NCBI GenBank assembly: GCA_004297395.1
Contig: SCUO01000093.1
Span: 62,001 to 126,000, forward strand
DNA from: Chloroflexota bacterium
GTDB taxonomy: Bacteria > Chloroflexota > Limnocylindria > Limnocylindrales > CSP1-4
Direction of reading: 5' to 3'
Length of the DNA: 64,000 nucleotides
A program made the translations under genes and the position numbers. A model generated the notes under the pieces. The model searched no databases. It worked only from the letters and a program-made list of their open reading frames with translations, and was not told the DNA's origin. Positions 44,594 to 56,224 of this stretch are shown in pieces (position 1 is the stretch's first letter; each line of letters opens with the position of its first letter).

Positions 44594-44622
44594 TTGACGT
44601 CGCGGACCGCCGCCCCTAGGAT
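44594..44622 (+). promoter_or_regulatory. Sigma-70-type promoter of the SAM-riboswitch operon
   Basis: TTGACG (44594-44599) and TAGGAT (44617-44622) are separated by 17 bases, placing the transcript start close to the riboswitch. Confidence 0.75.
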
Positions 44623-44641
44623 CCGCAGACAAACCGAATAG

Positions 44642-44748
44642 CCTATCGAGAGTGGTGGAGGGACCGGCCCTTTGAAGCCACGACAACCTACCGGCGGCGA
44701 CGCCGGCAAGGTGCCAAGTCCGGGCAGGACAACCACCTGCGAGATAGG
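44642..44748 (+). promoter_or_regulatory. SAM-I (S-box) riboswitch
   Basis: All core SAM-I segments are present in order. The P1 arm CCTATC (44642-44647) pairs with GATAGG (44743-44748). Between them are GAGAGTGGTGGAGGGA, then GGCCC..TGAA, then the AACC segment, then CAAGGTGCCAAGTCC. It binds S-adenosylmethionine and is expected to stop transcription at the following terminator when SAM is high. Confidence 0.95.
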
Positions 44749-44760
44749 GATCCACCCGAG

Positions 44761-44791
44761 CCCTTCCTCTCCCAGGAAGGGTTTCCTGTTT
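44761..44791 (+). terminator. Attenuation terminator of the SAM riboswitch
   Basis: CCCTTCCT (44761-44768) pairs with AGGAAGGG (44774-44781), followed by TTTCCTGTTT. It is the expression platform downstream of P1. Confidence 0.9.
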
Positions 44792-44859
44792 CTCCGGCCA
44801 CGATCGGTACGGCAGCCACGCCGAGCGCCCCGCGGTGCGCCACCTGCCAGGAGCCGACC

Positions 44860-46305
44860 ATGACGACCGAGACGACCACGACCGACGAGCGCAGCCACGC
44901 GCCGTCGATGATGGCCGCGCCGGTCGCGACCGGCCTCGGCACGAGCTCGGCCCCGGGCGCCGCGGTCGGCGCGGAGACCGGCGCCGGCGGCGGCCATTCC
45001 GCGATCGAGGTCGACATCGACCGCGCGGTCGACCCGGCCCATCGCCCCCGGATCGTCGGGCTGCGCTGTCGGAGCTGCTTCCGTCCCGAGACGGTCAGCC
45101 CCAGCTTCGTCTGCCCCGCCTGCTTCGGCCCGCTCGAGGTCGTCTACGACCGCGAGGCGATCCGGGCCCAGGTGAGCCGCGCCGCGATCGAGGCCCGCGA
45201 GCCCGGGATCTGGCGTTACCTCGAGCTCCTGCCCATCGACGAGGTCCCTGCCAGGAGCCTCGCGGTCGGCTCCACGCCGCTCCTCCGCGCCGACCGCCTC
45301 GGCGCCGAGCTCGGCCTGGCGGCCGGCAATCTGCGGCTCAAGGACGACACCCGGAATCCCACGCTGTCGTTCAAGGACCGGGTCGTGGCCATCGCCGCGG
45401 CGCGGGCCCAGGCCTTCGGCTTCGAGACCCTGGCCTGTGCCTCGACCGGGAACCTCGCCGGCGCCACGGCGGCCGCCGCCGCGGCGCTCGGGATGCGGGC
45501 CGTCGTCTTCGTCCCGGCCGACCTGGAGCCGGCCAAGATCGACCATGCCCTGAGCTACGGGGCGACGGTCGTCCCGGTCAAGGGCACGTACGACGACATC
45601 AATCGCCTCAGCCTCGAGATCGCCGACGAGGAGGGCTGGGCGTTCGTCAACGTCAACATCCGGCCGTTCTACTCGGAGGGCAGCAAGACCCTCGCCTTCG
45701 AGGTCGCCGAGCAGCTCGGCTGGCGGCTGCCCGACGTCGTCGTCGCCCCGATCGCCTCGGGCAGCCTGTTCACCAAGGTCGCCCGGGGCTTCGAGGACCT
45801 TGTCGCCGCAGACCTCGTCGAGGACAAGCTGGTCCGGTTCGTCGGGGCCCAGGCCGATGGCTGCTCGCCGGTCGCCCAGGCCTTCGCCTCCGGCGCGGAC
45901 GAGATCCACCCGGTCCGGACGCCCGACACGATCGTCCGGTCGCTGGCCATCGGCTCGCCCGCCGACGGTCGGTACGCCCTGGCCCTCGCCCGCCGGACCG
46001 GGGGCTCGATCGAGGCCGTCCCGGACGAGGCGACCGCCGCCGCGATCCGCCGGCTGGGCCGGACCGAGGGCGTTTTTGCCGAGACCGCCGGCGGGGTCAC
46101 GCTGGCCGGCCTGGAGGGGGCGATCCGGCGCGGGGTCATCGGCCCCGACGATGAGGTCGTGGCGCTCATCACCGGCAACGGCATGAAGACGCCTGACGCC
46201 AAGTGGTTCGGGGTGCCGGAGCGCACCGGGCTGGATGGTGGTGGGCTCGCGCCCGCCATCAATCCGTCCTATGCCGAGTTCAGCCGAGCGGGGATCGCCG
46301 GATGA
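44860..46305 (+). CDS. thrC: Threonine synthase-family PLP enzyme under SAM riboswitch control
   Basis: The 481-residue protein has a low-complexity N-terminus (about 1-45), a zinc-ribbon-like pair LRCRSCF...FVCPACFGPLE, and a fold-type II PLP domain with Schiff-base lysine in NPTLSFKDR and phosphate-binding ASTGNLAGA. This is typical of threonine synthase, which makes threonine from O-phosphohomoserine. Control by a SAM-OFF riboswitch is unexpected for threonine formation and fits a methionine-pathway role better. Threonine-synthase homologues that make homocysteine from O-phosphohomoserine have been described in actinomycetes. The DUF4395 neighbour is consistent. Both readings remain open. 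Confidence 0.85.
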   Translation: MTTETTTTDERSHAPSMMAAPVATGLGTSSAPGAAVGAETGAGGGHSAIEVDIDRAVDPAHRPRIVGLRCRSCFRPETVSPSFVCPACFGPLEVVYDREAIRAQVSRAAIEAREPGIWRYLELLPIDEVPARSLAVGSTPLLRADRLGAELGLAAGNLRLKDDTRNPTLSFKDRVVAIAAARAQAFGFETLACASTGNLAGATAAAAAALGMRAVVFVPADLEPAKIDHALSYGATVVPVKGTYDDINRLSLEIADEEGWAFVNVNIRPFYSEGSKTLAFEVAEQLGWRLPDVVVAPIASGSLFTKVARGFEDLVAADLVEDKLVRFVGAQADGCSPVAQAFASGADEIHPVRTPDTIVRSLAIGSPADGRYALALARRTGGSIEAVPDEATAAAIRRLGRTEGVFAETAGGVTLAGLEGAIRRGVIGPDDEVVALITGNGMKTPDAKWFGVPERTGLDGGGLAPAINPSYAEFSRAGIAG

Positions 46306-46361
46306 CCGGCCGGAACGTTGCCCCTCGACCGATCCGCCGATCCGCCGTATCCTCAGCCTCG

Positions 46362-46415
46362 ATGACGCGTCCCACGGGTATCCCGGGCCGCTGCTCCTGT
46401 CGCCGGCGGGCCTGA
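46362..46415 (+). CDS. Possible leaderless Cys-containing leader peptide
   Basis: A 17-codon ORF (ending GRCSCRRRA) starts eight bases after a -10-like TATCCT (46348-46353), 110 bases before the DUF4395 gene. Short Cys-coding leaderless ORFs act as cysteine-responsive attenuators of sulfur operons in mycobacteria. A similar function here is speculative. Confidence 0.3.
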   Translation: MTRPTGIPGRCSCRRRA

Positions 46416-46524
46416 GCCCGGCGGCCGACACCGGCCGTCCTTCGGTCCGCACGCAGCGTCCACACTCGCCCTTCGCGCTTCCGCCGCGCAGGCGCCGGGT
46501 CCCGACCCCACCTGAGGTTCACTC

Positions 46525-47028
46525 GTGTCATCCGTGATTCGCGTTCGCACCATCGATCCGCGCGGCCAGCGCTTCGGCGCCGGCCTGTCCGCGGTCACCC
46601 TCGTCGCCGGGATCGCGCTCGATCTCCCCGTCATCGCCGCGATCGTCGGGGCGGCGCTGGCCGTCAGCGCCGCCCTCGGCACCCAGTGGTTCCTGTTCGG
46701 CCGGCCTTGGCCGTCGGTCCGGAGAGCGCTCCAACTCGGGCCGCCTAGGGACCCGGAGCCGGAGCTCGGCCCGCGCTTCGCCCAGGCCCTCGGGGCCCTG
46801 TTCGTGGCGATCGGGTTCGTCCTCTTCGCCGCCGGCGCCCCGGCCCTGGTGTTCTGGGCCCCGATCGCCGCCGTCGCCGGACTGCAGGCGCTGCTCGCCG
46901 TCTCCGGCTACTGCCTCGGCTGCAAGCTCTATGGCCTCCACTGGTTCCTGCCCGAGCTCTTTGACCGGGTCGTCCTGCGGGTGCCGGTCCAGCCGCGGAT
47001 CTCGCTCCGGAGCCCCGGCGCGCGCTGA
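46525..47028 (+). CDS. DUF4395 membrane protein
   Basis: This 167-residue protein has four predicted transmembrane helices and the DUF4395 features: an N-terminal VDPRG-like segment (TIDPRGQRFGAGLSAV) and a C-terminal GYCLGCKLYGL with two cysteines. Members of this family are often next to thioredoxin and thiosulfate sulfurtransferase genes and may take part in sulfur transfer (from memory, untested). GTG start. It lies downstream of the SAM-controlled threonine-synthase homologue. Confidence 0.85.
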   Translation: MSSVIRVRTIDPRGQRFGAGLSAVTLVAGIALDLPVIAAIVGAALAVSAALGTQWFLFGRPWPSVRRALQLGPPRDPEPELGPRFAQALGALFVAIGFVLFAAGAPALVFWAPIAAVAGLQALLAVSGYCLGCKLYGLHWFLPELFDRVVLRVPVQPRISLRSPGAR

Positions 47029-55273: not shown

Positions 55274-56224
55274 ATGGACACCCTGCTCGATCACCACGCG
55301 GCTCCAGGTCCCGTTCCGCCCGCCGTTGCCCGGGCGCGCTGGGACGCCCTCCTCGGCAGCGGCGAGCCCGTCCTCGCCGACGGGGCCATGGGCACGATGC
55401 TGTTCTCGGCCGGCCTCCAGTTCGGCGACCCGCCCGAGATGTGGAACGTCGCCCTGCCCCAGGGCTCGATCGTCCGGCAGATCCATCGCGGCTACCTCGA
55501 CGCGGGGTCGAGGATCATCCTGACCAACACCTTCGGCGGCAATCGCCTGCGGCTCAGCCTCCACGGTAACGAGCGCCACGTCGGCGAGGTCAACCAGATG
55601 GCCGCGATGCTGGCCCGGGCCGAAGTCGAGGCGGCAGGCGGCAACGCCCTCGTCGCCGGCGACATCGGGCCGTCGGGCTCGATCATGGTCCCGATCGGGC
55701 CGCTCGAGTTCGACGAGGCCGTCGATGTCTTCGCCGAGCAGGCCGCGGCGCTGGTCGCCGGCGGCGTGGACCTCATCTGGATCGAGACGATGTCGGATCT
55801 CGAGGAGATTCATGCTGCCATCGAGGGCGTCCGGCGCGTCGCGCCGGAGATCCCGCTCATCACCACGATGACCTTCGACACCCGCGGTCATACGATGATG
55901 GGCGTCTCGCCCGAGCGGGCCGTCGCCGCCCTCCAGGGCTGGGGCGCCGACGCGATCGGCGGCAACTGTGGCAACGGCCCCGACGAGCTCGTCCCGGTCG
56001 TTGCGAGGATGCGAGCCGCGGCACCGGACGTGGTCCTCGTCGGGAAGTCGAACGCGGGCATGCCCGAGCTGGTCGACATGAAGGCCGTCTACCGGGCCGA
56101 GCCGTCGGCGATGGCCGCCTACGGCCTCGAGATCCGGGCGGCCGGCGCCTCGATCATCGGGGCCTGCTGCGGGTCCACGCCGCCCCACCTCCGGGCGATG
56201 TCGGAGGCACTCTCCGCTCGTTAA
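55274..56224 (+). CDS. Homocysteine S-methyltransferase family protein
   Basis: This 316-residue enzyme of the MetH N-terminal/BHMT family transfers a methyl group to homocysteine. Its zinc cysteines appear in GGNCGNGPDEL and ACCGSTPPHL. The start of the barrel (LADGAMGTMLFSAG) and segment ILTNTFGGNR are typical. The methyl donor (betaine, methylmethionine or other) is not clear. The ATG was chosen by family alignment of the N-terminus. It complements the SAM-riboswitch operon at 44.6 kb in methionine metabolism. Confidence 0.92.
   Translation: MDTLLDHHAAPGPVPPAVARARWDALLGSGEPVLADGAMGTMLFSAGLQFGDPPEMWNVALPQGSIVRQIHRGYLDAGSRIILTNTFGGNRLRLSLHGNERHVGEVNQMAAMLARAEVEAAGGNALVAGDIGPSGSIMVPIGPLEFDEAVDVFAEQAAALVAGGVDLIWIETMSDLEEIHAAIEGVRRVAPEIPLITTMTFDTRGHTMMGVSPERAVAALQGWGADAIGGNCGNGPDELVPVVARMRAAAPDVVLVGKSNAGMPELVDMKAVYRAEPSAMAAYGLEIRAAGASIIGACCGSTPPHLRAMSEALSAR

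Follow-up and report, generated by a model that had tools for sequence, protein, structure and literature searches.

A SAM-I-controlled paralogue of threonine synthase in a Chloroflexota genome as a proposed MetM-type homocysteine synthase

We analyzed a 64,000-nucleotide stretch of a Chloroflexota genome, referred to here as the window, in which a gene of the threonine synthase (ThrC) family lies downstream of a riboswitch for S-adenosylmethionine (SAM). The family tree, the active-site letters and the SAM-sensing switch indicate that this gene is almost certainly that of the methionine-pathway enzyme MetM, and we propose that its product is an O-phosphohomoserine-dependent homocysteine synthase. 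In 2024, Hasebe and co-workers reportedly found that MetM of Streptomyces turns O-phosphohomoserine into homocysteine using thiocarboxylated MetO. MetM itself is thus already published, and the window enzyme is a new member of it; the new parts are a locus lacking metO, with a probable shared sulfur carrier, and the Cys-coding leader of a neighboring DUF4395 gene. The explanation that we prefer, and hold with good confidence, is a MetM-type homocysteine synthase under SAM-I control, with CysO as its proposed sulfur donor and DUF4395 most likely a separate unit. All features described below are on the forward strand.

The SAM-I leader and the metM-type gene

The initial annotation had described a complete promoter, SAM-I aptamer and terminator in front of the ThrC-family gene, and all three were recovered. 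A sigma-70-type promoter, TTGACG-N17-TAGGAT, is predicted at 44,594–44,622 (one found, as compared with 0.1 expected in shuffled sequences). It is followed by a full-length SAM-I (S-box) aptamer at 44,640–44,750, which matched RF00162 with 66.4 bits (gathering score 44.4; E 2.9e-13), and, 3' of the aptamer, by the predicted terminator hairpin of the expression platform at 44,758–44,784 (−16.3 kcal/mol; one found, 0.4 expected). As judged by eye, the 5' arm of the terminator, CCCUUCC, can pair with the P1 3' strand GAGAUAGGG, which would form an antiterminator. In most leaders of relatives (n = 23), this promoter was again followed by the aptamer and by the GACCCUUCC...GGAAGGGUC hairpin, and a TTGAC-like −35 and a TA...T −10 were likewise present in the majority. 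An AGGAG ribosome-binding site (44,849–44,853) lies 6 nt 5' of the ATG at 44,860. When SAM is plentiful, its binding to the aptamer would allow P1 to form and the terminator to stop transcription, and the enzyme would be made only at low SAM.

SAM-I elements were also found elsewhere. A second one in the source genome lies 5' of a QueF-like gene (L054:9217–10122, contig C55; also L061), which is a PF14489 member scoring 58.6 bits with TIGR03139, under the cut-off. At L072:2786–3517, the gene between SAM-I and metM is a better match to QueF, with 97.7 bits and thus over the cut-off; a queuosine-pathway-like enzyme under SAM control is unusual. As expected for a methionine regulon, relatives carry SAM-I 5' of MetH-like genes (L080:1609–7520 and L070:1953–5833), and at one of these two loci a homocysteine methyltransferase/MTHFR-like gene comes first after SAM-I.

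The metM-type gene (44,860–46,305) encodes a PLP-dependent ThrC paralogue of 481 amino acids (PALP, 1.4e-71). The codon of Lys172 (45,373–45,375), within NPTLSFKDR, aligns to K61 of Thermus thermophilus ThrC and marks the PLP Schiff-base lysine, which is retained in the MetM alignment alongside the MetM-specific residues. A zinc-ribbon-like N-terminal element, Cys70-x2-Cys73 ... Cys85-x2-Cys88 (45,067–45,123), was seen in the sequence and in most complete relatives as well, and may bind a metal. The best NCBIfam names for the window protein were all threonine synthase, and it passed the curated thrC model TIGR00260 (254.6, cut-off 167.1). Contig C52 of the same genome carries a hom-thrC-thrB operon of the canonical kind, whose ThrC is about 39% identical to the window protein and passed the same model with 313 bits. 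The model therefore does not separate MetM from ThrC, and automated annotation would name both proteins threonine synthase.

A phylogeny against ThrC and MetM and a search for a second thrC had been set beforehand as tests of the homocysteine synthase reading; the latter was answered by the C52 operon. The tree held 53 proteins: 18 ThrC (13 from the window's lineage and 5 solved structures from the PDB) and 35 on the MetM side. The latter comprised a seven-member clade that includes the window protein, 19 further proteins from its lineage, and 9 proteins named as MetM in actinobacteria. Orthologues from Streptomyces, Kitasatospora and Nonomuraea stood in for the assayed S. albulus MetM. The split between ThrC and the MetM side received 100/100 support with the window protein on the MetM side, as did its own seven-member clade. 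Constraining the window protein to group with ThrC cost 21.7 log-likelihood units, and this grouping was rejected (AU p 0.006). Neither of the two results named beforehand as refuting, a sole ThrC homologue beside a complete separate homocysteine pathway or firm clustering with ThrC, was obtained.

The residues pointed in the same direction. In T. thermophilus ThrC numbering, ten changes from ThrC to MetM were common to 24 SAM-linked Chloroflexota paralogues and the 9 actinobacterial MetM: T88L, S155N (T in one), N157R, R160Y, Q164S, G187A, N188S, A240S, R242A (S in one) and D323T. By comparison, S155, N157, R160, Q164 and N188 were kept in all 13 canonical and 5 PDB ThrC, and the window protein lacks the ThrC residues S155, R160, Q164 and N188. 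The window protein resembles ThrC of known structure (PDB 2zsj, 6cgq, 1uim and 2d1f) in its fold and PLP lysine, but belongs to another clade, has T88, S155, N157, R160, Q164, N188 and D323 replaced, carries the zinc-ribbon-like N-terminus, and is encoded under SAM-I control outside the hom-thrB operon. We take R160, N188 and S155 to line the phosphate pocket of ThrC; losing a pocket for the released phosphate would fit a replacement by sulfur in place of phosphate-assisted hydration to threonine.

That the gene is instead a second threonine synthase (or threonine synthase/deaminase) brought under SAM control appears improbable to us. The TIGR00260 score speaks for it, as does the cyanobacterial MetM homologue, Microcystis ThrC, which is 51.6% identical to MetM, is encoded beside a metO homologue and yielded threonine in vitro (PMC12172450). 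That protein acted as a threonine synthase and as a deaminase, and with sulfide it gave one unidentified product peak only (PMC12172450). It is the closest studied case outside Streptomyces and was counted against the homocysteine synthase reading. On the other side, a canonical ThrC is already encoded in the hom-thrC-thrB operon, the tree test rejects the ThrC clade, positions that every bacterial ThrC in the comparison conserves carry other residues here, and repression by SAM makes little sense for threonine. Threonine synthase identity was rejected on the tree, the residues and the separate ThrC operon.

Homocysteine formation in the genome and its relatives

Under the MetM reading, the hom and thrB steps of the threonine branch would supply O-phosphohomoserine, and MetM would swap its phosphate for sulfur in a PLP-dependent reaction. 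The homocysteine formed would then serve for methionine and SAM. A separate homocysteine pathway was looked for by family searches of the source genome (3.08 Mb in 143 contigs). None of MetX, HTS/MetA, MetY and HcyBio was found (best MetX match, 26 bits); since the genome is 85% complete, these absences are provisional. Together with the tree, the residues and the separate ThrC, this result supports the initial proposal of a MetM-like homocysteine synthase, the reaction itself being predicted from sequence. Two full-length PF01053 proteins, one methionine gamma-lyase-like and one cystathionine gamma-lyase-like, could have a part in homocysteine formation, which counts against the MetM reading.

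The same lyases could act on cystathionine, and replacement chemistry in this PLP fold is versatile. Both points favor a use of another nucleophile on O-phosphohomoserine, such as cysteine to give cystathionine, whereas orthology to MetM, whose reaction is said to be sulfur transfer from MetO, argues against it, and we regard this as very improbable.

As previously pointed out, a homocysteine S-methyltransferase-family gene lies at 55,274–56,224 (PF02574, 2.9e-64). Its best NCBIfam match, betaine-homocysteine methyltransferase, was under the cut-off (311 vs 338 bits), and the gene may possibly provide the next step to methionine. A search of the genome for the MetH reactivation domain found none, and one for MetE gave a weak match only.

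We also surveyed 37 genomes of the family for MetM and MetX/MetY. MetM without MetX/MetY was found in 16 genomes and the reverse in 8, while 8 had both and 5 had neither. Completeness ranges from 62 to 90% among the last five, of which one (G024) has a MetM-like fragment. Strict mutual exclusion was rejected, since both occur together in 8 genomes; the gene contents suggest that MetM can stand in for MetX/MetY without strictly replacing them.

The missing metO and a candidate sulfur carrier

MetM would usually receive its sulfur as a thiocarboxylate on MetO, the product of the neighboring gene. According to PMC12172450, a paper that cites Hasebe et al. (2024, AEM 90:e01247-24), metM of S. albulus has a SAM riboswitch upstream, and metO is a gene of a putative sulfur-carrier family. 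Among 81 actinobacterial metM loci, a pattern search placed metO directly downstream in 66, and inspection added 14 of the 15 left over. The arrangement of SAM-I and metM, mostly with metO directly downstream, occurs in Nonomuraea, Streptosporangiaceae, Streptomyces and Kitasatospora, and all 8 further actinobacterial metM loci tested for SAM-I were positive. The locus of Nonomuraea gerenzanensis, for example, comprises SAM-I, metM, a gene for a ThiS-like protein of 91 aa with the C-terminus AVAGG, and then cold-shock and GroEL genes. In L126, L137, L169 and other Streptomycetaceae loci, MetO reads ...AVAGGC, and the residue that follows its GG tail might have to be removed before activation.

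The window locus shares with the MetM/MetO system of Streptomyces the SAM-I element and a PLP enzyme that derives from ThrC, falls in the same clade and has the same residue replacements, and its protein is about 52% identical to Nonomuraea MetM. Unlike that system, it has DUF4395 with a Cys leader in place of metO, the protein has a long low-complexity N-terminus, and the host belongs to the Chloroflexota. No metO lies directly 3' of metM in the window, and none was found beside metM in the six relatives that have the window-type enzyme. These seven window-type genomes are among 14 of the lineage in which metO is absent, as compared with 10 that have it adjacent to metM.

The initial annotation had suggested a sulfur-carrier protein; a MetO partner is absent from the metM locus, but a carrier was found elsewhere. 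A genome-wide ThiS search gave three proteins: one MoaD-like (by eye), CysO, and one adjoining a sialidase-like repeat gene (by eye). CysO, a ThiS-type protein with a GG end, is encoded on contig C68 together with a rhodanese-ThiF protein of the MoeZ type, that is, a carrier and its activating enzyme, in an operon with the order NifU-like, MoeZ, CysO, CysM and JAB protease (JAMM). Almost every relative examined has this operon. These adjacent genes correspond to the CysO/CysM/MoeZ/Mec+ system of mycobacteria, which shares the logic of a carrier-dependent PLP synthase with the proposed MetM system but differs in that its product is cysteine and CysM is a protein separate from MetM. MetO and CysO formed two groups (90/91) in a short tree that had only moderate support. 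Since metO is absent and CysO is the only plausible carrier found in the source genome, we propose that CysO may serve MetM in trans. CysO, loaded by MoeZ, would then serve both CysM for cysteine and MetM for homocysteine. Free sulfide, or a missed metO, is a possible alternative to CysO.

In a related alternative, the homocysteine synthase would take its sulfur from free sulfide or a persulfide, perhaps via the CxxC protein DUF4395, and not from a carrier protein. It would agree with the missing metO in the seven window-type genomes, with the position of DUF4395, which has an invariant CxxC, beside metM in six of these seven, and with the sulfur genes near DUF4395 elsewhere (most named by eye). 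Nevertheless, one genome (G010) has the window-type enzyme without DUF4395, seven other metO-less metM loci have no DUF4395 directly 3', a promoter and a Cys leader of its own seem to serve the DUF4395 unit, and a complete CysO/MoeZ system is present. We consider this alternative rather unlikely, and prefer the carrier-dependent reading with CysO.

DUF4395 and its Cys-coding leader

The DUF4395 gene (46,525–47,028; PF14340, 6.4e-23) encodes a membrane protein with a CxxC, of which both cysteines, Cys130 and Cys133, were kept in 24 of 24 homologues. A single-sequence AlphaFold model consisted of helices throughout with a mean pLDDT of 62, too poor for a fold search. A search for DUF4395 in plasmid records gave no match, and the titles and abstracts of the literature searched offered nothing on its function. 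Elsewhere, its neighbors (most named by eye) were MoeZ-CysO-CysM, sulfurtransferase-like, CysK/M-like, thioredoxin-like and OsmC-like genes, and one neighborhood had the order NifU-like-DUF4395-MoeZ-CysO-CysM. In the window, an FAD-dependent amino-acid oxidase-like gene (DAO, PF01266; 47,111–48,271) is located 3' of DUF4395. Each of the seven window-type genomes has such a gene after DUF4395 or, in the case of G010, immediately after metM.

A Cys-coding leader had been noted at this locus; the ORF is real, but it lies before DUF4395, between metM and that gene, and not before metM. It spans 46,362–46,415 and has 17 codons (MTRPTGIPGRCSCRRRA, then stop), followed by a conserved GC-rich hairpin sequence. 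A −10-like TATCCT (46,349–46,354) is placed 7 nt 5' of the leader ATG, and this spacing suggests a leaderless transcript. The GRCxC..RA stop motif with the GC-rich sequence was found once each in exactly the six metM-DUF4395 genomes and in none of the others of 61; the leader is present at all six loci, with its ATG displaced or replaced in two. The leader had no match in Rfam. Since this leader, with its own −10-like element, intervenes and is confined to the six metM-DUF4395 genomes, DUF4395 is probably transcribed separately from metM. The family assignment and sulfur association of DUF4395 given initially stood. A reading of the gene as part of the SAM-controlled operon was set aside.

Short Cys-coding ORFs (C-x-C, then basic residues) were also seen about 200–310 nt 5' of DUF4395 in L086, L268, L269, L270, L271, L272, L274, L275 and L276. 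C-x-C leaders occurred at 9 of 18 other DUF4395 loci, as compared with 4 of 309 control genes; the p-value of 3e-10 overstates this difference, as the rows are related and the motif was chosen after seeing examples. These ORFs are candidate cysteine-responsive attenuators outside Actinobacteria, and we propose that the window leader may likewise act as a cysteine-responsive attenuator of DUF4395. In actinobacteria, Cys-coding leader ORFs precede cys operons (Seliverstov 2005, PMC1262725; Canestrari 2020, as cited in PMC9031893). The window leader resembles these in being a short ORF with Cys codons near the stop, a leaderless-type −10 and a sulfur-associated gene downstream. It differs in having C-x-C and not a long Cys run, in the GC-rich hairpins around its stop codon, in its target, DUF4395, and in its non-actinobacterial host. 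With DUF4395 as a separate unit under a Cys-coding leader, the locus would carry two sensors of sulfur amino acids.

Taken together, these observations allow a wider and tentative hypothesis, to which we give somewhat less than even odds. After loss of metO, CysO may feed cysteine and homocysteine synthesis from a single pool of activated sulfur, while DUF4395, as a CxxC membrane protein, may be a cysteine-sensed component of sulfur supply under a new leaderless attenuator outside Actinobacteria. With this locus, a methionine route discovered only recently gains a further bacterial lineage, in which standard models mislabel MetM as threonine synthase. The locus also offers a way in which homocysteine could be formed in genomes that lack MetX, MetA and MetY. 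It raises the testable idea of one sulfur carrier for two pathways and, for DUF4395, gives a first regulatory clue, cysteine.
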